Source: Deltaproteobacteria bacterium
GTDB taxonomy: Bacteria > Desulfobacterota_D > UBA1144 > Nemesobacterales > CSP1-2
Assembly (NCBI GenBank): GCA_016187835.1
Contig: JACPIY010000003.1
Location: forward strand, 1-34,859
DNA length: 34,859 bases
Reading direction: 5' to 3'
Notes under the pieces: model-generated
Seen by the model: the letters and a program-made list of their open reading frames with translations, nothing else
The model's database searches: none
What the model was told of the DNA's origin: nothing
Program-made: the position numbers and the translations under genes
In this document: piece by piece, positions 13,310 to 28,006 of the stretch
Position numbering within the stretch: the first letter of the stretch is position 1
Layout of the letters: each line of letters starts with the position of its first letter

Positions 13310-14887
13310 CTAGGATTCCTCCCAGGGCTTTTTTATTTCTATTCCGTACTTATTTATTCTATAGTCAACCTGGCGGGAGCTAATTCCAAGAAGCGTTGCT
13401 GCACGAGATTTAACCCATCCGCATTTCTGAAGCGCCTTTATAATGAGTTCCTTCTCCATTTCTTTAACTGTTTTGGTAAGAGAGAAATTGCCTGAAGCAT
13501 CTTTATTAATCTCACCTGTCTCCGGATTATTATGTAGTTGCTTACTGAATGTCCTTATCTCGTAAGGTAAGTCCTCCACGTTAACTCTATCTCTATCAGC
13601 CATAATCACAAGTCTCTCTATACAGTTTTCAAGTTGCCTCACATTTCCAGGCCATGAGTATTCGAGCATCAAACCCATGACCTCATCTGAAATCCCAATC
13701 CTTTTATTGTTTTCTTCGTTAAACCTCTGAAGAAAATGCTCTACAAGAATAGGTATATCCTCTTTTCTTTCCCTTAGGGGAGGATGAAATATCGGTATGA
13801 CGTTAAGTCGGTAGTATAAATCTTCTCGAAAGCCTCCTTTCACCATGGCTTTCTCCAAGTCCTGGTTTGTTGCGGCAATAACGCGCACGTCTATGGAAAT
13901 AGTTTTTGAACTACCCAGTCTTTCAAACTTTCTTTCTTGGAGAACGCGAAGTAGTTTCATCTGTGTTGATACTGGAATGTCTCCGGTCTCGTCAAGAAAA
14001 ATCGTTCCGCCATCCGCAAGCTCAAACCTACCCTTGCGTTCATGTATTGCTCCCGTAAAGGAGCCTTTTTCATGACCGAAAAGCTCCGTCTCAAGAAGCG
14101 TTTCCGGAAGGGCCGTGCAGTTAATTTTTATAAAAGGCTTTTTCGCCCTGGGACTGTTATAGTGAATGGCTCTCGCTATGAGCTCTTTACCGGTTCCGCT
14201 CTCACCTCTCGGGAACACCGTAGCTGTTGTGGCGGCCACGCGGTGCACAGTCTCGAATATTTCTTTCATACCGTCACCTTGTCCAATTACATTTTCCAAA
14301 CTGTGCTTTGTCTTTAGTTGTTGACGCAGGCTGATTTTTTCCAGTATGAGTTTTTGTTTTTCCTTTTCTACCATATAACTAAGCTCAACCCCTTGACCTA
14401 TTAGTGAAGCAACCATGCTAAGAATCCTAACTCCAGCATCCATGAAAAAAGAGACCTTTTCTTTATAGAACGCAACACCGAGGGTTCCTATCACTTTTTC
14501 ACTAGTCTTGATGGGAACACATATATATGAAAAATTTAGATTTTCATTATAGAGTTTAATTTGATCACTTAAGCTCGGCTCATCCCTAATATCGGAGATA
14601 TTGATTGGGGAGCCGGATTTAAAAACCTTCCCTATAATACCCTGCCCGGCTCTGTATGTTCTTAGTTTTTTCTCTTCTTCGTTGATACCAAGGGCAACAA
14701 AAGTTGAGAGTTCTCTCGTTTCAGGGTTTGACAGCACTACCGTGCGGTATTTCATATCTATAAATTTGTCTAAAATGTTCATCACGGAATCGAGTGATTT
14801 TTTAAGGTTGAGGGTTGACGTAAGCTCTTTACTTGCCTCATAGATAGTAGTAAGCTCTAAAACCTTTGTATCAACTTTGAGTCTCAT
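13310..14887 (-). CDS. NifA-like sigma-54-dependent activator (GAF-AAA+-Fis)
   Basis: A bacterial enhancer-binding protein that uses ATP to open sigma-54 promoters. Domains: an N-terminal GAF sensor (about 15-170); the AAA+ core with Walker A GESGTGKE (228-235), the sigma-54 contact loop as GSFTGA (275-280; the usual form is GAFTGA), Walker B GGTIFLDETGD (293-303), arginine finger FREDLYYRLNV and WPGNVRQLENC (412-422); and a C-terminal Fis-type HTH ending AATLLGISSRQVDYRINKYG. The last segment, with its QVxYRIxKYGI pattern, resembles NifA more than NtrC. No nif gene is in the window. Its likely targets are the promoters at 7360 and 9379, whose upstream boxes fit the NifA consensus TGT-N10-ACA. 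It is transcribed toward moeA. The GAF ligand is unknown. Confidence 0.93.
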   Translation of the reverse strand: MRLKVDTKVLELTTIYEASKELTSTLNLKKSLDSVMNILDKFIDMKYRTVVLSNPETRELSTFVALGINEEEKKLRTYRAGQGIIGKVFKSGSPINISDIRDEPSLSDQIKLYNENLNFSYICVPIKTSEKVIGTLGVAFYKEKVSFFMDAGVRILSMVASLIGQGVELSYMVEKEKQKLILEKISLRQQLKTKHSLENVIGQGDGMKEIFETVHRVAATTATVFPRGESGTGKELIARAIHYNSPRAKKPFIKINCTALPETLLETELFGHEKGSFTGAIHERKGRFELADGGTIFLDETGDIPVSTQMKLLRVLQERKFERLGSSKTISIDVRVIAATNQDLEKAMVKGGFREDLYYRLNVIPIFHPPLRERKEDIPILVEHFLQRFNEENNKRIGISDEVMGLMLEYSWPGNVRQLENCIERLVIMADRDRVNVEDLPYEIRTFSKQLHNNPETGEINKDASGNFSLTKTVKEMEKELIIKALQKCGWVKSRAATLLGISSRQVDYRINKYGIEIKKPWEES

Positions 14888-15242
14888 CTCTAATACTTGC
14901 TCTTAAACCTTCTTAAATTTATATAGTGATAATCCAAGTTCAACTTAGGCTTCGTCTTAAGTTTGGGCGGAAGTTATAAATTGGAACGTACTGCAACACA
15001 CCACAACAATCAAAGGACACTCAATTTTTGATTGCTTCGTCCTTTCTTTGCTCCGGTTCCTTCTCTTCTGTTTACAGGCTTCTTTACGTAATATCCAAAT
15101 CGAATCTTTATAGTATTCCAGCAAATAATATGCCAGGACAAATAGGCTGAAATTACTCAATTTTTTTGGCCTAAACCCTATTTTTATGCTTATAAATCGA
15201 GCATCGAGTTTATTTTAAAGGCACGTTTATAAGAGAAATGTT
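14888..15242. other. Gene-free gap upstream of the activator
   Basis: 355 nt of AT-rich DNA between two minus-strand genes. It must hold the activator's promoter, but I could not pick a convincing one. A 67-codon frame here has a low-complexity, basic translation and no RBS; I do not call it. No repeats of the window's families were seen. Confidence 0.5.
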
Positions 15243-16010
15243 TTACAATTTTATTTGCATTCCATCCTCAAGTATTTTTAGGGGCAGTTTTTTCGATAGG
15301 CTATCTAAATCCGCGACAACCTCTTTTCTACAGAACGGCTTTAGGTGAGTTACATATATTTCTACATCCATACGATTAAGCTTACTAAGCTCTCTTGCCA
15401 TTAGGTCTGGAGTAAGATGTTTTGTTATTCTGGCCATCTCTTCCAAGCGGTTTGGGAAGCTGGCCTCTATAATTATTGCACGAAGCCTTTCGTTGTTTTG
15501 AATCTTCTCCCAGAAGGAGTTCGTAAGATATGTGTCTCCGGTGAAAGCAAATGCAGTTTTTCCGTCATCTACCAAATAGCCTACAGACGGGACCGTGTGA
15601 TTTACAGGGATTGGCAACACGGTGTATGAACCTATCTTTAGGTTCTCAAGTGGCTTAAGGGTTTTATAAGACAGCTTTGCTTCTTTTGGATTTGGAATCC
15701 TTGAGAAATCGGGCCAGATGGTTCCGTTCAATAGATGCGATGAAATGTCTTCTATAGCCTCTTTTATACCGTATAAAAAAATAGGCTCCTTTCTCAAGTC
15801 GAAAACCGCCTCTACTAAGAAGGGCAGGTCGCATATGTGATCAATATGGGCATGTGTGATAAGAATATTGTCTATCCGGGCACAATCCTCCAAGCTGAGC
15901 ACCTCAGATGCTGTGCCGGAATCAAGCAAGAGACTTTCATCAATTAAAAAAGCAGTAGGCCTTGAATCTATTCCTCTGCTTCCGCCACAGCCAAGAATGA
16001 AAATTCGCAA
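15243..16010 (-). CDS. Class II cyclic-nucleotide phosphodiesterase-like metallo-beta-lactamase-fold hydrolase
   Basis: A 255-aa metallo-beta-lactamase-fold hydrolase. The metal motif is ITHAHIDH (His53, His55, Asp57, His58), followed by VNHTVPSVGY, FTGDTYLT and VTHLKP, which supply the remaining ligands. The N-terminus (LGCGGSRG, then LLLDSGTASEV directly ahead of the metal motif) resembles class II cAMP phosphodiesterases (PDEase_II) rather than beta-lactamases, glyoxalases or RNase Z. The start is TTG, backed by AAGGAG 6 nt upstream; there is no better ATG. It is the last gene of a five-gene run whose first encodes an adenylate cyclase and whose fourth carries a cyclic-nucleotide-binding domain, which favours cAMP hydrolysis. 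The substrate is inferred; the fold is firm. Confidence 0.75.
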   Translation of the reverse strand: MRIFILGCGGSRGIDSRPTAFLIDESLLLDSGTASEVLSLEDCARIDNILITHAHIDHICDLPFLVEAVFDLRKEPIFLYGIKEAIEDISSHLLNGTIWPDFSRIPNPKEAKLSYKTLKPLENLKIGSYTVLPIPVNHTVPSVGYLVDDGKTAFAFTGDTYLTNSFWEKIQNNERLRAIIIEASFPNRLEEMARITKHLTPDLMARELSKLNRMDVEIYVTHLKPFCRKEVVADLDSLSKKLPLKILEDGMQIKL

Positions 16011-16022
16011 TTAACGCTCCTT

Positions 16023-17561
16023 CTACAATCCGAAAAAAGCCTTCATGCTCTTTAAGAATCTTGTCGAATAGTTGTTTCGCATAACGGCAACCTCTTCCGC
16101 TTTTTTCCCTTCTTGAAAAAACCCCTCGTTTATAAGCTGCCTTTCCGCCAATCGTCTGCTTAATTCTTCCATAATCTCAGGGCTATTCTCGAGTACCGGC
16201 AATACATCTGTCTTTTTAATCTCGACAAGCTCAATATCCGAATCGGCCACTACACTCGCACTCCTTGGCTCACCCGTAAGAAGCGACTTCTCACCAAAAA
16301 AGTCTCCGGATTTTAGCTTTGCAACGATAATTTCCCGACCATTATCCGGCATCCTTACATGAACGCTTGCATCGCCTTGAAGAATAAGGAAAAGAGAGTC
16401 TCCAACATCGCCCTGTTTAACTATATGCTCACCCTTTCCAAAATTCCATATACGACCCGAAAAAGCTAGAAGTTGAATATCTTTACCATCCAGAGGCTCA
16501 AAGATACTCACATGGCGAAGAAATTTCTCAACTCTCTTGTGACTCATTTCTTCAATCTCTTCCTTCCTCTCTAATTCCTCATGTATAAACACATCCCGTA
16601 TTGGGAAAGGAATTTTTATACTGCTTCGCCTCAAGTTATACCAAATGCGAGTCATGACATCGCTCTGAATATCCTCTGATATGGGTCGGTCTTCAATCCA
16701 GAACTTTAGTTGATAGGTGATAGCAAAATCTCCAAAGTTAATCAAGCGGCATATTGGCCTTGGTGGGGATATAACACCCTGGGTTTCTAGGGCACAGTTA
16801 ATCAGTACATCCTTTACCCGTGTAGGGGGGGCGCCGTACTCAACGCCCACATACAAAAGTAGCGCGTGGAGTCTTGCAGGCTTATAGAAATTAATAATCT
16901 CGTCCTTTGAAATAACGCTGTTTGGGATAGTAAGATAGGTTAGCTGACGCGTCCTGAGCGTTGTAGCGCGCCAGTTTATATCTACCACTTCCCCCTCCTT
17001 ATCACCGACCATAATCCAGTCTCCTACTTCAAACGGCGGTTCTATGTTGAGGGCAATTCCGCCAATAACCCCACTCAGAAAATCCTGAAGTGCAAAGCCA
17101 ATCACCGCCGCCGTTACACTTGAAGCAATGAGAAGACCGGAAAGCTGAAGGTTAAAAATGAAGCGAACTATAACCAAGATGGCAGCAATTAAAATTAAAA
17201 GCGTCACTATGCTTCTCAAAAGTCCCGGAACGTACGTCTTGCGGTGCTCGGAAAGATAGAAGTCCCAGAAAAAAACAGATAGAATTTTTATTGAAAACCA
17301 TACTGCAAGGAAAATAACTATAGCGGTATACCACTTTAGGAACAAAACCAGATTCCAGTCTTTGAGCAAGCCGTATTTATGGTTTAGAATAACCCAAACA
17401 CAAACAGCGGAAATAAGAGAAAAGACGTTATAGAATAGGCCCAGCCTTATCCTGAATCGGCTCCTTAAAAGCCAACCAAATCCCAAAAGAGCGATAAGCA
17501 CAGATAAGCTAATAACCGAGGTTGTTAAGGCGGGTGACTGTTCTAGCCACGTTGTCATCAT
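16023..17561 (-). CDS. MscS-family channel fused to a cyclic-nucleotide-binding domain
   Basis: A small-conductance mechanosensitive-type channel with a C-terminal cNMP sensor. Membrane helices lie at about 14-34, 42-60, 76-97, 113-134 and the pore helix at 141-172 (ASSVTAAVIGFALQDFLSGV). The MscS beta domain follows with FEVGDWIMVGDKEGEVVDIN (177-196), then TIPNSVIS. The cNMP domain spans about 350-475: IVKQGDVGDSLFLILQGDAS, then the phosphate-binding cassette FGEKSLLTGEPRSASVV with Glu424 (ribose) and Arg433 (phosphate) both intact. Such fusions resemble the bacterial cyclic-nucleotide-gated MscS relatives (bCNG), many of which gate with ligand rather than tension. It lies 12 nt before the phosphodiesterase-like gene and 15 nt after the peptidase gene. 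Confidence 0.93.
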   Translation of the reverse strand: MMTTWLEQSPALTTSVISLSVLIALLGFGWLLRSRFRIRLGLFYNVFSLISAVCVWVILNHKYGLLKDWNLVLFLKWYTAIVIFLAVWFSIKILSVFFWDFYLSEHRKTYVPGLLRSIVTLLILIAAILVIVRFIFNLQLSGLLIASSVTAAVIGFALQDFLSGVIGGIALNIEPPFEVGDWIMVGDKEGEVVDINWRATTLRTRQLTYLTIPNSVISKDEIINFYKPARLHALLLYVGVEYGAPPTRVKDVLINCALETQGVISPPRPICRLINFGDFAITYQLKFWIEDRPISEDIQSDVMTRIWYNLRRSSIKIPFPIRDVFIHEELERKEEIEEMSHKRVEKFLRHVSIFEPLDGKDIQLLAFSGRIWNFGKGEHIVKQGDVGDSLFLILQGDASVHVRMPDNGREIIVAKLKSGDFFGEKSLLTGEPRSASVVADSDIELVEIKKTDVLPVLENSPEIMEELSRRLAERQLINEGFFQEGKKAEEVAVMRNNYSTRFLKSMKAFFGL

Positions 17562-17576
17562 AGGGTTGGTTGTTAA

Positions 17577-18422
17577 TTATTTTAAAGCCTTCTCAAACCT
17601 CCTGGCTCTTAACTGGACAAGAGATGGATCGGCTTTTTCTTTGGATAAATTTTTTTCAACCTTTTCTATCCTGCCTGCCGTTGCCGGATGGCTTTTCATT
17701 ATCCCTCCGCCGGATGCCCCGCCCTCACTGACGAGGCGTTGGAGGAAATCCTTCAAAGCAGAAGGGTTGTATCCAGCTCTGGTAAGATACGAAATAGCGC
17801 CTTCATCGGCATGATATTCCTGGGATTTTCCATAGCCATTAACTACTAGAGTCTTAAATACATCATCAATAGAGCCTTCAAAGGCAGTGACGAGCTGTGA
17901 TAACTGAGCGGGAGTATATCTTTGAGCGGCCTGTGTGCCTATTAGCGCCGCAACCGCTGTCAGGCGCGCCTTCTGAATAGCCGAAACGCCGTCTCGATGG
18001 TTTACGTGGGCTACTTCATGGGCAAGGACCGCCGCAAGCTCGTCCTCATTCCGTACCGCGTTTATCATACCCTTTGTTATGAATATCGTCCCGCCGGGAC
18101 ATGCAAACGCGTTTATCTCTTTTGAATTAAGTATCGCAAAATGATAACCGCCATAGGTATAGGGCTTATCGGAGTTAAGCGCTACGGTATTCCCTACAAG
18201 ATTAACGTATTCGGTGAGCTCTTGATTTTGTAAAAGTGAATATGATGAAAGAATCCTCGCAGCTACTGACCGACCGACATAATACTCCTCTTCATCGGAA
18301 AGAGGTCTTGCTGCCTCGAAGGTTTGCTGAACTACTCTAGTCACACCGCCTATATCAACTTGAGTACAGCCAATTAACGAAAGGAAAGTTAATATTAAAC
18401 TTAAAGATAGGAGCTTATTCAT
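17577..18422 (-). CDS. M48-family metallopeptidase, lipoprotein
   Basis: A 281-aa zinc peptidase of the M48/Oma1-like group (relatives of LoiP and the BepA peptidase domain), likely anchored in the envelope and facing the periplasm. The signal peptide ends in a lipobox (LIGC, Cys19). The zinc site is LAHEVAHVNHRDG (His135, Glu136, His139), with the third ligand region in QEYHADEGAISYLTRAGY. GGTIFITKGMINAV precedes it, as is usual for the family. The C-terminal SHPATAGRIEKV is also typical. It has no TPR tail. Its ATG overlaps the stop of the SH3 gene (ATGA). The tie to the cyclase and channel suggests an envelope-stress role, which is inference. Confidence 0.9.
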   Translation of the reverse strand: MNKLLSLSLILTFLSLIGCTQVDIGGVTRVVQQTFEAARPLSDEEEYYVGRSVAARILSSYSLLQNQELTEYVNLVGNTVALNSDKPYTYGGYHFAILNSKEINAFACPGGTIFITKGMINAVRNEDELAAVLAHEVAHVNHRDGVSAIQKARLTAVAALIGTQAAQRYTPAQLSQLVTAFEGSIDDVFKTLVVNGYGKSQEYHADEGAISYLTRAGYNPSALKDFLQRLVSEGGASGGGIMKSHPATAGRIEKVEKNLSKEKADPSLVQLRARRFEKALK

Positions 18423-18880
18423 GGGAGGCTTAGTTTCCCCTTTTGAATGAATTGCATAAGTTCGCTGTCGGGAATTTTATAACTCTCTACCCTGTCAACG
18501 GCGCCGAAGTTTAATTCGGGATTTTTATTCTTATATGCCGCCTCTACCTGAGGATTAAACCCTTTTCCTGCTAGGGCAACCTCCTCGCCTGATGTCCCTT
18601 TTCCTTGGGATCCTGTAAGCTTGGACAGAGAAAGGGATTTTTTCTGAATGGCGCTCTTATGAATACATCCCTGGACCCCTTTAAACGTGACCTGAAACCA
18701 GTCACCCTCCTTTGAGACAACCTCAAGCACGTCATTGTAATGAACCGTTGCCTTGACAGGAGAAAAAAACTTGCAAGAAGTTCTTATCGCATTTTGCTTT
18801 GTGATAACAGTTACGGTCTCTGCGCGGACGGAGGTTGAAGCAGCAGTAATCATTAATAAGACTATAATGAATAGCTTCAT
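18419..18880 (-). CDS. Periplasmic SH3-domain protein
   Basis: 153 aa with a clear Sec signal peptide (FIIVLLMITAASTSVRAE, cleavage after ARA). A bacterial SH3-like domain spans about residues 22-78: it opens TVTVITKQNAIRTSCKFFSP and contains VHYNDVLEVVSKEGDWFQVT, then GVQGCIHKSAIQ, which is the usual end of the fold. The tail (80-153) is low complexity and then helical. Such domains often bind peptidoglycan or envelope proteins. It starts one nucleotide after the cyclase stop (TAA-T-ATG) and overlaps the next gene by 4 nt. Its role in the module is unknown. Confidence 0.8.
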   Translation of the reverse strand: MKLFIIVLLMITAASTSVRAETVTVITKQNAIRTSCKFFSPVKATVHYNDVLEVVSKEGDWFQVTFKGVQGCIHKSAIQKKSLSLSKLTGSQGKGTSGEEVALAGKGFNPQVEAAYKNKNPELNFGAVDRVESYKIPDSELMQFIQKGKLSLP

Positions 18881-18881
18881 A

Positions 18882-20987
18882 TTATTTCTCTGTAAACTTT
18901 ATAACATCCCAATCCAGTGTCAAGTGGGAGTTTGATATTATATATTCGCACCTATCCCTATAAAATTCGGAGGGCCCATCATTGGGATATTCTCTGAGTA
19001 TCTCGATGAATACTTGGGCTGCTTCGTGCCACTTCCTCTCTTTATAAAAAGCTAAAGCCCGATTAAAGAGCGCTATAAGATCCTTTTTAGCCGGTTCTAT
19101 ATTTTGTTCCTCGCCTATGAGTTCAAATACTTTTGCCGGTTGAACCTTCCCTTTTACCGCTATGGAGCCGAGCTCTCTGGCGAAAAAACTATTACCCGTT
19201 TTTTTGAGAGTATCCTCGCTTATTATGATGCTGGTCTTAAAGAATTTATTTACGGATTCAAGTCTTGATGCGAGGTTTACTGTATCACCAATAACCGTGT
19301 AATGAAATAGTCTATCGCTTCCAATATTACCGGCTATCGCAGGGCCAGAGTGTATGCCAATTCTTATTTTCAATTCGGGCAAGCCCTCCGCCCGGAGATC
19401 GCTATTGATTTCACGTAGAGACTCCAGACACTCTATAGCGGAATGACATGCATTTATTTCGTCCTTATCGGTATCAAACGGGGCGCCCCAGAACGACATC
19501 ACAGAGTCCCCAATGTATTTGTCTATAACTCCCTGATTACGTATCAAAACCTCTGTAAGAGAATTCAAAACCTTATGGAGTACGGTGGCTACTTTCCCGG
19601 GCGATATTATTTCCGCAAAGGAAGTAAAACCCGCGAGATCGGCGAAAAACACCGTGACCCGCCTTACCTTCCCGCCGGGTTTAATGAGGGATGGATTTTC
19701 CAGAATGTAGTCAGCGATCTTCTTGTCCATATACTGAGAGAAAGTCGCTTTTAGGAAAAGCCGCTGTCTTCCCTCGGTGGCATAACTGTAGGCAACTGAA
19801 ATTAGAAAGCTAATTACTAATGACGAAATAGGAGAGATTATACTCATATACAGGGATGCCTTGAATAAGGCGGCAAGGATCATAATTATTACGAATAGAG
19901 ATACTATAAAAAGAGAGAGATTTACAAGAAGGGAGTGGCTTCTTAAAACAGAATAACTGACTAAGAAACAGATGAGTAACATAAAGACAATTACAAAAAT
20001 TCCACTAACCGATCTAATAAAATTTTCGTTCACAATATTTTCGAGAGTCGTCGCATGGATGTGTACGCCCGTGGATATGGATGAAATAGAGGTCGGTTTA
20101 AGGTCGTATAAGCCAGCAGCAGTTAGCCCTATAAATACGACTTTTCCTCTGAAGAAATCCTTGTTAACAGATGGTGTTGTTGATGCGTTGCTGTCGAGGT
20201 AAGACTTGATTATTTGGGAAGCCGAGAACACTCTAAAGGGATTATCTTCCGCATAATATCTTAGCAAAAGCTTTCCATTAGTAAGGGGGATCTTGGCGTC
20301 TTTGACGTAGACAGAATTTTGGATGATTTTAACCATGGCTTTTTGGACTAGGTGGCTGAGTACGAAATTAGGAATAGAATATTCTTTTAATTGAAAGACA
20401 ATGGGTACCCTTCTGTAAACGCCGTCTTCATCAGGAGAAATCGTTACGTTACCCGATCCCATAATTGAACTTTTAAAAGCATCAATCGGTGTAATAGCAG
20501 AATTGAATGACAGGACCGGCGATATCTCTCCCTTAATTGAAATATTTTTCATAAACTCCTCATCTTGAGCAGACATGGCTTTCTGCTTTTGTGAGAGGAA
20601 AACCGGCAGATAAACGTTTGAAGCCTTTTTAAATGCATCTGCAAGAATCGAATCGTCCTCTTGACCGTAAGAGGACGGTTCGGTAAAAAGAATATCCATA
20701 AAAACGGCGTCCGCCTCGGATAAATACTCTATTATCGGGAAGTATATTTGCCTTGGCCAAGGCCAGGTGATACCCTGCTCGCTCAAGGCATCAATGCTCT
20801 GCTGATCAACCTCCACTATGACGATATCGCCTGAAGAACTTACGGGGTTAAGATGCCTGGAGAACAGGTCATAGGCTTTAAGCTCAAATAGACCTAATAC
20901 ATTAGACAAAAAAATTACAAGAGATACGAGAAAGGACGATATTGTAAGAGCTAAGAATTTTCCGTTATTGGAGTTAAAGACTTTTAT
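18882..20987 (-). CDS. CHASE2-domain class III adenylate cyclase, non-canonical start likely
   Basis: Makes cAMP from ATP in response to an extracytoplasmic signal. A CHASE2 sensor (about residues 25-290, numbered from the TTG at 20909) is followed by three membrane helices (301-322, 327-349, 352-375) and a class III cyclase domain (about 415-590). Metal ligands are Asp424 (FFADLAGFT) and Asp468 (DKYIGDSVMSFWGAP). Lys464 and Asp542 (IGDTVNLASR) are the ATP-specifying pair, with Asn545 and Arg549 also present. A TPR-like tail (608-650) closes the protein. The first canonical start, TTG 20909, would cut off half of the N-terminal membrane helix that the frame encodes upstream (KFLALTISSFLVSLVIFLSN). 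The frame is open back to about 21010 with no ATG, GTG or TTG; an ATA at 20987 has AGGTGG 7 nt upstream and is the best start. Confidence 0.88.
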   Translation of the reverse strand: MKVFNSNNGKFLALTISSFLVSLVIFLSNVLGLFELKAYDLFSRHLNPVSSSGDIVIVEVDQQSIDALSEQGITWPWPRQIYFPIIEYLSEADAVFMDILFTEPSSYGQEDDSILADAFKKASNVYLPVFLSQKQKAMSAQDEEFMKNISIKGEISPVLSFNSAITPIDAFKSSIMGSGNVTISPDEDGVYRRVPIVFQLKEYSIPNFVLSHLVQKAMVKIIQNSVYVKDAKIPLTNGKLLLRYYAEDNPFRVFSASQIIKSYLDSNASTTPSVNKDFFRGKVVFIGLTAAGLYDLKPTSISSISTGVHIHATTLENIVNENFIRSVSGIFVIVFMLLICFLVSYSVLRSHSLLVNLSLFIVSLFVIIMILAALFKASLYMSIISPISSLVISFLISVAYSYATEGRQRLFLKATFSQYMDKKIADYILENPSLIKPGGKVRRVTVFFADLAGFTSFAEIISPGKVATVLHKVLNSLTEVLIRNQGVIDKYIGDSVMSFWGAPFDTDKDEINACHSAIECLESLREINSDLRAEGLPELKIRIGIHSGPAIAGNIGSDRLFHYTVIGDTVNLASRLESVNKFFKTSIIISEDTLKKTGNSFFARELGSIAVKGKVQPAKVFELIGEEQNIEPAKKDLIALFNRALAFYKERKWHEAAQVFIEILREYPNDGPSEFYRDRCEYIISNSHLTLDWDVIKFTEK

Positions 20988-21360
20988 CTTGATTCCACCT
21001 AACTTAGAGTGTCCTTATAGTTTTAAAAAAATTGGTTAACGAAAAACCCTACAGCAAGTTGCTGGGTATCACTACATAAACTTAAAAACTTTTCGTCATT
21101 GCGAGAAATGAAATGACGAAGCAATCTATTGAGATTCCTCACGGAGTTTATCCTGAGGGTGACGAAGGGTTCGGAATGACACCTCGTGTCAGATTACTTC
21201 ACGGAGTTTACACTGAACGAAGCATGCCCTGAGTGTAACCGAAGGGTGAATGTGTTCGCAATGACAATCGAAACCCCGTAGCAAAGTACTGGAATTAACA
21301 AGTTAAAGTTGTCTTGCCAAACACCAAATTCCAATTCGCCTAGCTTCAACTTTGAAAACT
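20988..21360. repeat. Gene-free gap with TCATTGCGAG-type repeats
   Basis: From about 21094 to 21306 the DNA is a mosaic of the TCATTGCGAG/AATGACA repeat class. The part from about 21191 to 21306 (with TTTACACTGAACGAAGCATG, then TAACCGAAGGGTGAATGTGT) has a close direct copy at about 32069-32188. The similarity runs on past the core through GAAACCC...GT and GGAATT..CAAGTTAA. The promoter of the cyclase operon should lie at about 20990-21060 but is not obvious. Confidence 0.7.
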
Positions 21361-26614: not shown

Positions 26615-27286
26615 TTAAACTTTCTTTGGTCGTCCAATCGGACGATAATGTAATACTCTACCTGCTATTCTTTCAAATATCTTTACAAACTTCTCAGAAC
26701 CACTTGGAAGCCCCTTATACGTATTTCTCCTTATTATCTCTACTTTATCTCTATCTTCTCCCTCCGCTAACCACTTTCTCCAATCCCCTATCTCCTCAAA
26801 CCTCTCCCACCATTCGCTCCTTCTCGTCAACACCTCATCTTCTATCAACTTACAATGCCCTGCTGCACTACTCCACCTGTAGTCCTCCGCTTTCCTAACC
26901 ATCCTAGCCCTTACAGGATTACTCTCTATATATCTTATCGCTACCCATAAATACTCATCATCTAGCGGTGATGAAAAATACCTGCCCTGCCACAAATGCC
27001 CCTTCCACCCTTTCTCCCTGTTTATCCTCTGTGCATATTTCATATGAAGCGGTCTCAAAACTCTTTCTAAACCTTCCCCTTTTGCCGGTACAGCAACAAG
27101 ATGCATGTGATTGGTCATAAGACAATATGCCAAAATATCTACTTCGTGCTTATGACAATACTCCTTAAGCCATGTTAAAAACAACTTGTAGTCTTCGTCA
27201 GTAAAAAACACATCTTCTCGTCTGTTTCCTCGCTGAGTTATATGATGGGGAACTCCGGCAAATATTACCCTTGGATGTCTCGGCAT
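26615..27286 (-). CDS. REP-associated tyrosine (Y1, HUH) transposase
   Basis: A 223-aa single-strand DNA transposase of the Y1_Tnp family (TnpA_REP/RAYT type). The N-terminus has the typical [17 protein letters not shown] (residues 12-28). The HUH metal motif is TNHMHLV (His60 and His62). The catalytic tyrosine is Tyr119 in [23 protein letters not shown] and [10 protein letters not shown] are further family marks. The length and the C-terminal extension (about 150-223) are as in RAYTs rather than the 140-aa IS200 TnpA. It sits alone between inverted hairpin repeats and appears intact, so it may still be able to act on its ends or on matching repeats elsewhere in the genome. Confidence 0.9.
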
Positions 27287-27308
27287 AAAATAATTATATC
27301 ACCAGGTA

Positions 27309-27329
27309 AAAAGGGTTGCGTCCCCTTTT
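27309..27329. repeat. Right inverted end of the RAYT unit
   Basis: Exact reverse complement of 26591-26611; the truncated integrase frame begins just beyond it. Confidence 0.85.
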
Positions 27330-27331
27330 TC

Positions 27332-28006
27332 CCCCTTTTTCCCAAAAGATTGCCGACGGTTCTAACCAGAGAAGAAACACTCAAGATTATCCAGTGTATG
27401 TCAGGTTTGCACCAACTGATGGCAAAGCTCCTGTATGGAAGCGGACTACGTCTTTCCGAATGCGTCGAGATGCACGTTAAGGACATTGATTTCACACAGC
27501 GCCAGATCACTATCCGTGACGCCAAAGGTATGCAGGATCGAGTGACCATGCTTCCAGAGAGTTTGGTTAAGCCGTTACGGGAACACCTGGAACGCGTGAA
27601 AAAGTTACACCAAGAAGACCTAAAGAAAGGCGGGGGCTCGGTTTATCTTCCCTTTGCTCTGGGACGTAAATACCCTAGCGCCAGTCGTGATTGGGGCTGG
27701 CAATATGTATTTCCATCGGCTCGCTTGGCGAGGGACCCTCGTGACGGCATCCTTCGCAGGTATTACATGAGCGAAACGACATTGCAAAGAGCAGTCCACA
27801 AGGCAACGCGACTGTCGGGCGTCAATAAACCCGTCGGTTGCCACACCTTTCGCCATAGTTTTGCCACGCACCTGCTTCAAAACGGTTATGACATTCGAAC
27901 CGTGCAAGAGCTGCTGGCACACAAGGATGTCAAAACCACAATGATTTATACGCACGTTCTGAATCGGAGAGGAATGGCGGTGCGAAGCCCGATTGATCTT
28001 CTTTGA
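27332..28006 (+). pseudogene. intI: Integron-type tyrosine integrase, 5'-truncated
   Basis: The C-terminal catalytic part of an IntI-like recombinase: [15 protein letters not shown], then [20 protein letters not shown] (first catalytic Arg), [13 protein letters not shown], and [20 protein letters not shown] (HxxR), [20 protein letters not shown] (His and nucleophile Tyr). The run [20 protein letters not shown] with [12 protein letters not shown] matches the extra segment that sets integron integrases apart from XerC/D. The usual N-terminal SAM-like domain (about 80 or more residues) is missing. The frame stays open back to 27242, but that part is transposase-unit DNA with no integrase likeness. 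The break coincides with the RAYT unit's right end. All catalytic residues survive, yet without the arm domain it should be inactive. Confidence 0.85.

Follow-up and report, generated by a model that had tools for sequence, protein, structure and literature searches.

The locus

Five genes lie head to tail on the minus strand between positions 15,243 and 20,987 of a contig from a Deltaproteobacteria bacterium (assembly GCA_016187835.1, contig JACPIY010000003.1, of which positions 1 to 34,859, the whole stretch analysed here, are called the window). We argue that these genes, which encode an adenylate cyclase, an SH3 protein, an M48 lipoprotein, an MscS-type channel with a cyclic-nucleotide-binding (CNB) domain and a hydrolase, probably make up one membrane-localised circuit for cyclic AMP (cAMP). 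The genome to which this contig belongs has 2.86 Mb and is 94% complete; its nearest named relatives, in a contig search, are Candidatus Dadabacteria and Desulfobacterota metagenome-assembled genomes. The original prediction, made from the letters of this DNA, was that the five genes make, sense and degrade a cyclic nucleotide at the membrane. Its account of order, strand and spacing is borne out: 1 nt separates the cyclase and SH3 genes, the SH3 and M48 genes overlap by 4 nt, and 15 nt and 12 nt lie before the channel and hydrolase genes, respectively. The features, in the order of transcription, are these.

20985..21000, minus strand: Shine-Dalgarno-like AGGTGG, 7-nt spacer and apparent ATA start of the cyclase (homologue alignment)
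18882..~20987, minus strand: predicted CHASE2 class III adenylate cyclase (Pfam, residues, start-codon alignment, transmembrane helices by hydropathy)
18419..18880, minus strand: periplasmic SH3-type protein with a signal sequence and a strictly conserved LAGKGF (SH3_3, alignment A4)
17577..18422, minus strand: M48 metallopeptidase lipoprotein, lipobox Cys19, HExxH intact (Peptidase_M48, alignment A5)
16023..17561, minus strand: MscS-type channel with a C-terminal CNB domain, resembling bacterial cyclic nucleotide-gated (bCNG) channels, cassette FFGEKSLLTGEPRSAS (Pfam, alignment A6)
15243..16010, minus strand: metallo-beta-lactamase-fold hydrolase, predicted class II-type cyclic nucleotide phosphodiesterase, THAHIDH (PDEase_II, AlphaFold and Foldseek)

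Domains were called with Pfam at the profile cut-offs and equivalogs with NCBIfam. Pfam agrees with the domains first assigned, the SH3 protein being the marginal case: it scores 23.8 bits for SH3_3, slightly below the cut-off of 27, and its orthologue in another genome of our sample (G115) reaches 44.5. That sample holds 387 genomes; loci are labelled L and genomes G.

The cyclase and its start codon

The first gene product scores 163.7 bits for CHASE2 and 88.6 bits for Guanylate_cyc, and hydropathy gives it a first transmembrane helix (TM1), a periplasmic CHASE2 domain, three more helices, the catalytic domain and a short TPR-like tail. Its active site is complete. The motifs FADLAGF, IDKYIGD and YTVIGDTVNLASRLE are all present, and with them the residues by which a CHASE2 class III adenylate cyclase is recognised (the Asp pair, Lys, Thr or Asp, Asn and Arg), including both metal-binding Asp, the adenine-type Lys (IDKYIGD) and the Thr (YTVIGD). 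These intact adenine-specific residues predict that the enzyme makes cAMP from ATP.

Where does this protein begin? The original prediction placed the end of the module at 20987, and homologues support a start there, at a codon that proves to be the non-canonical ATA, with AGGTGG upstream of it. The sole in-frame ATG, GTG or TTG ahead of or inside TM1 is a TTG at 20909, and a protein begun there would have only half of that helix. Canonical start codons are likewise absent in frame ahead of TM1 not only in the window but in L034, L050, L142 and L039, and L140 offers a single candidate, a badly placed TTG. With TM1 as the anchor of the alignment, the window has ATA at codon -16, L034, L050 and L039 have ATT there and the sister L212 has ATG; in L140 and L142 the codon in question is -17, which reads ATA in the former and ATC in the latter. 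Upstream of the first canonical start, moreover, the second codon position is the least variable, or tied for least, in every pair that includes the window, as expected if the region is translated. It thus appears that the cyclase starts at AUA, AUU or AUC in six genomes of this lineage (the window, L034, L050, L039, L140 and L142), the apparent start in the window being the ATA at 20987. Translation of infC and pcnB is known to begin at AUU, and cyaA of Escherichia coli is limited by its UUG start. In the lineage of the window, the unusual start codon probably keeps synthesis of the cyclase low.

The cyclase-SH3-M48 triad

The SH3 and M48 proteins are not peripheral to the module. The SH3 family, whose hallmark is the invariant LAGKGF, is present in 18 of the 387 sampled genomes, and wherever the contig extends far enough (17 of 17 loci) the SH3 gene is followed by the M48 gene. 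A CHASE2 cyclase belongs to the cluster at 15 of these 17 loci, at one of which two opposite-strand genes intervene. In a maximum-likelihood tree, a branch with support of 100/99 splits the 16 cyclases of SH3-M48 loci from 10 other CHASE2 cyclases, which include paralogues from the same genomes, and the label of module cyclase changes once on that tree against a mean of 8.2 for shuffled labels (0 of 500 shuffles as low). Because the M48 gene and the cyclase keep such company with the SH3 gene, and because the cyclases form a single clade, we regard the three genes as a unit of long standing, served by a cyclase subfamily of its own; as far as these comparisons reach, the triad is the old core, and the channel and hydrolase are its variable parts.

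The M48 lipoprotein scores 111.4 bits for Peptidase_M48 and has the lipobox Cys, the HExxH and the third Glu ligand of BepA/LoiP-type proteins; C19, H135, E136, H139 and E202 are invariant in six aligned members. Its best curated relatives are BepA (98 bits) and LoiP (63.5 bits), at scores well under the equivalog cut-offs of 570 and 365. The AlphaFold model of the SH3 protein is poor (pLDDT 67).

The channel as candidate receptor

The channel has the bCNG architecture, in which a CNB domain comes after the beta-domain and C-terminal domain of MscS (PF00924, MS_channel_2nd, 66.7 bits; PF21082, 36 bits; PF00027, cNMP_binding, 77.4 bits). In the CNB domain the phosphate-binding cassette FGE...PRSA (FFGEKSLLTGEPRSAS) is intact, with its Glu and Arg in place, and these two residues (E424 and R433) are invariant across four channels, two of which are only about 30% identical to that of the window. 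Searches of the genome itself found one MscS-domain protein, which is the operon channel, plus one MscL. They also found three CNB proteins, and the two outside the operon lack the cassette Glu and Arg (FGE...R); the genome's single CRP/FNR-like protein has neither the Glu nor the Arg. The operon channel is therefore the only canonical cyclic nucleotide receptor that we found, in a count that covers receptors of the CNB type in the 94% of the genome that is represented. Judged by these residues, cAMP would gate the channel through the CNB pocket.

The hydrolase

The product of the last gene scores 60.1 bits for PDEase_II (PF02112; cut-off 23.7), a profile that all 15 of its homologues match as well, and H53, H55, D57, H58, H138, D159 and H222 are invariant in those 15 (alignment A1). 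Its profile, compared with structures in the PDB, finds yeast PDE1 (3e-17), YhfI (1e-15), RNase Z (5e-10) and Apyc1 (3e-5). The AlphaFold model (pLDDT 95) gives a similar order: the top Foldseek match is again yeast PDE1 (4ojv, E 3.6e-18), with about 20% identity to the window protein, and YhfI, RNase Z, PhnP and Apyc1 follow. Cleavage of cyclic nucleotides has been shown experimentally for YhfI, Rv1339 and Apyc1 (PMC9293780, PMC9117128).

The protein is nonetheless not a plain PDEase_II member. It departs from the typical class II motif HxHLDH (PMC9293780), having HAHIDH, and its homologues carry I, F, L, A or V at the position in question; it matches the atypical motif [T/S]HxHxDH (PMC9293780) with THAHIDH at residues 52-58, and it falls far short of the Rv1339-type equivalog NF041851 (37.7 bits against a cut-off of 400). 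We infer from motifs and modelled fold that it belongs to a separate family of class II-type cyclic nucleotide phosphodiesterases, between the typical and the atypical, and that it would have the corresponding activity.

The neighbours of this family are consistent with such an activity. Of 71 family loci, 31 have a cyclase/CHASE2 or CNB gene no more than three genes away from the hydrolase; among 29 control loci, which carry paralogous hydrolases from the same genome sample, the number is 1 (Fisher p 3.6e-5). For neighbours on the same strand the numbers are 27 and 0 (p 2.9e-5). The loci are not independent, since some are closely related, and part of the material for the CNB and cyclase models came from the loci themselves. 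The contig search used a narrower hydrolase alignment, the 15-member one being too divergent, and partial Aenigmatarchaeota matches (L111-L115) were left out. The hydrolase counts are lower bounds: spurious opposite-strand reading frames can mask the gene, and the hydrolase of L215 was recovered by a motif scan. The original prediction had proposed a check of this kind, and it comes out in favour for the hydrolase and its neighbours and less so for the complete set of five, which is rare.

Single loci make the association more concrete. A CHASE2 cyclase, a CNB protein and the hydrolase are adjacent in L043; a cyclase, a CNB protein and the hydrolase are adjacent in L047, where the contig carries only the catalytic end of the cyclase; and L051:7209-8633 encodes a hydrolase-CNB fusion. 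In Sulfurospirillum, a hydrolase-GAF-HD fusion (L096:3915-6266) stands beside a CHASE2 cyclase, and a single protein of this type may couple one cyclic nucleotide system to another.

The family also keeps some other company. In two Rhodocyclaceae (L065 and L079) a large protein of 804-812 aa is immediately preceded by a CHASE2 cyclase, the hydrolase and a CNB-rhodanese protein, and in L062 a protein near that length beside the hydrolase is a GAF-bearing type II/IV secretion ATPase. Genes for a CNB protein, the hydrolase and the acetyl-CoA carboxylase beta subunit (AccD-like) are adjacent in L043, L044, L045, L046 and L091, from distant genomes.

The full set in other genomes

All five components occur together in 4 of the 387 sampled genomes, and in three gene orders. 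In sets that Pfam confirms, G001 (L034) has them in the order of the window; G115 (L144) has them as SH3-M48-channel-cyclase-hydrolase, and G293 (L215) as SH3-M48-cyclase-hydrolase-channel. In the classification used, G115 and G293 are related to the window genome at the domain level only, and their hydrolases are of a different subfamily, which matches beta-lactamase-superfamily profiles and leaves PDEase_II unmatched. Since the set recurs in distant bacteria with its genes rearranged, the grouping is not accidental, and since those sets use a different hydrolase subfamily as well, the set was assembled more than once. A partial version is found in G003, where cyclase, SH3, M48 and channel genes stand together (L140) and the hydrolase lies elsewhere, adjoining another CHASE2 cyclase (L036). 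In G115, a single-contig genome, the channel and its CNB domain are in two overlapping frames (L144:9737-11232), an apparent frameshift.

A probable circuit and its alternatives

We put the probability that the five genes form one membrane-localised cAMP circuit at about 0.62. In such a circuit, the SH3 protein, the M48 lipoprotein and the CHASE2 domain would report on the condition of the envelope and set the activity of the attached cyclase, which would convert ATP to cAMP; the cAMP would then bind the MscS-type channel encoded nearby, in its C-terminal pocket, and alter its opening, so that the output would be a flux of solutes or ions instead of transcription. The product of the last gene, to go by its family, fold and gene context, would hydrolyse the cAMP and end the signal. 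The unusual start codon would throttle synthesis of the cyclase, and the channel and phosphodiesterase would have joined the old triad in several lineages. The account in its entirety, in which the CHASE2-SH3-M48 cyclase drives a cAMP-gated MscS channel, a phosphodiesterase of a new family resets it, an AUA, AUU or AUC start limits it and the whole came together on two or more occasions, with phosphodiesterases of differing subfamilies, is something we hold only tentatively, as a picture somewhat more apt to fail in one of its parts than to stand in all.

There is, of course, another side to the ledger. The notion of a module that makes, senses and degrades a nucleotide gains from the intact residues and from groupings that recur, whole (G001, G115, G293) or in part (L043, L047 and the fusion L051), and it loses by the rarity of the full set. 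Several relatives in the same family have no channel or keep the hydrolase elsewhere (L035, L036, L037, L038), and the hydrolases of G115 and G293, which belong to a different subfamily, are presumed equivalents. MscS-CNB channels also occur without an adjoining cyclase, in L145-L148. With seven class III cyclase domains encoded in the window genome, the operon cyclase need not be the source of the channel's ligand, and bacterial CNB domains do not always bind cAMP.

The strongest alternative is that the real unit is the triad, as an envelope sensor feeding a general cAMP pool, and that the channel and hydrolase share with it only a transcript or a cAMP theme and close no local circuit. No other part is anywhere near as well conserved as the triad, at most of whose loci both channel and hydrolase are missing (L212, L213, L217, L220), and MscS-CNB genes can be found alone. 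What makes us consider this alternative unlikely, if worth taking seriously, is that the channel and hydrolase have joined the triad in differing orders, in distant genomes (L144, L215) and with another hydrolase subfamily, a sign of selection for the whole set, and that the other two CNB proteins of the genome lack the canonical pocket residues. A doubt of a different kind attaches to the hydrolase, which could be an RNase Z or a PhnP-like enzyme that acts on RNA or some other phosphodiester and has nothing to do with cAMP. The NCBIfam RNase_Z model does give it 62.5 bits, in a match that covers the metal-binding half, and PhnP gives 39 bits; the RNase_Z score, however, is far under the cut-off of 293, a better RNase Z candidate (C48) exists elsewhere in the genome (91 + 42 bits in two pieces, against 44 for the window hydrolase), PDE1 and YhfI outrank RNase Z in the profile and fold searches, and the family is enriched beside cyclase and CNB genes. 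We think this quite improbable.

Less probable still is a Pycsar-like anti-phage system, in which infection triggers a cyclic nucleotide that opens the CNB channel and kills the cell. The channel would be plausible as a membrane effector, and PADLOC models for PycC and for Pycsar effectors match the cyclase domain and the CNB domain; these matches, though, are limited to shared domains, and the defence models match none of the other three proteins. The cyclase has the adenine-type Lys and Thr where a pyrimidine cyclase would have other residues, and CHASE2, SH3, M48 and a phosphodiesterase within the operon are not Pycsar parts. Finally, compact operons of unrelated genes do exist, and five such genes could have come together on one strand by chance. 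The recurrence of the set in G001, G115 and G293, and of subsets in many more genomes, leaves this the least credible of the explanations we considered.

Comparison with described systems

By analogy, the nearest described logic is that of the CHASE2 cyclases CyaD1, CyaD2 and CyaK of Sinorhizobium meliloti, which receive a signal through the outer-membrane protein NsrA and whose cAMP receptor is the transcription factor Clr (PMC13001267). Both cases have CHASE2 class III cyclases and, as predicted for the window, an envelope-side signal that passes via a separate protein, cAMP as the product and a dedicated CNB receptor. They differ in that the receptor in the window operon is a channel and not, like Clr, a CRP-family protein, that the partners are SH3 and M48 proteins and that the last gene encodes a metallo-beta-lactamase-fold hydrolase.

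The bCNG channels of the MscS superfamily, reportedly the subject of work by Caldwell in 2010 and Malcolm in 2012, share with the window channel the MscS core, the C-terminal CNB domain and the canonical phosphate-binding cassette; the window channel differs in its operon partners, which are a cyclase, two proteins of the periplasm and a predicted phosphodiesterase. In the literature we found no bCNG or MscS channels tied to CHASE2 cyclases, a weak absence given that most subscription papers lay outside the search, and nothing on Dadabacteria with cyclic AMP.

The class II phosphodiesterases, both typical (yeast PDE1, CpdP) and atypical (Rv1339, YhfI, Corynebacterium glutamicum CpdA; PMC9293780), and phage Apyc1 (PMC9117128) resemble the window hydrolase in fold and in [T/S]HxHxDH, but its family stands apart from the Rv1339-type model and from PDE1 and is distinguished by its genomic association with CHASE2 cyclases and CNB proteins. 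Pycsar, with its pyrimidine cyclase and CNB effector, likewise places a class III cyclase beside a CNB-bearing membrane protein, and differs in lacking the window's adenine-type residues, CHASE2 sensor, M48 and SH3 partners and in-operon phosphodiesterase. BepA and LoiP share the Peptidase_M48 domain on an exported protein; the window M48, linked to an SH3 protein and a cyclase, remains under their equivalog cut-offs.

Other features of the window

An Rfam scan of the window returned no RNA families, and promoter and terminator scans gave counts no higher than in shuffled sequence, so the ends of the transcript are not defined by these scans. A 24-nt inverted repeat (15030-15053 and 21103-21126) was considered as the two ends of an element flanking the operon and was rejected. 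Its core, GATTGCTTCGTC, occurs five times in the window against 0.15 expected, and is for that reason a dispersed repeat, two copies of which, in opposite orientation, happen to bracket the operon. Directly downstream of the operon, at 13310-14887, is a gene for a GAF sigma-54 activator (NifA model, 568.9 bits; cut-off 528.85), which is also found in G001, and at 27242-28006 a tyrosine recombinase gene of the phage integrase family sits amid housekeeping genes.

Significance

MscS-type channels with CNB domains have had no obvious source for their ligand and no obvious sink. Here, one operon is predicted to supply both. Around that prediction, the comparison yields a likely function for an uncharacterised family of hydrolases whose genes, across many distant genomes, neighbour those of cyclases and CNB proteins, and what appears to be a rare case of a non-canonical start codon kept across a lineage on a signalling enzyme. 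The SH3 protein with its LAGKGF, in turn, would serve as a marker for an old, envelope-sensing cyclase triad.

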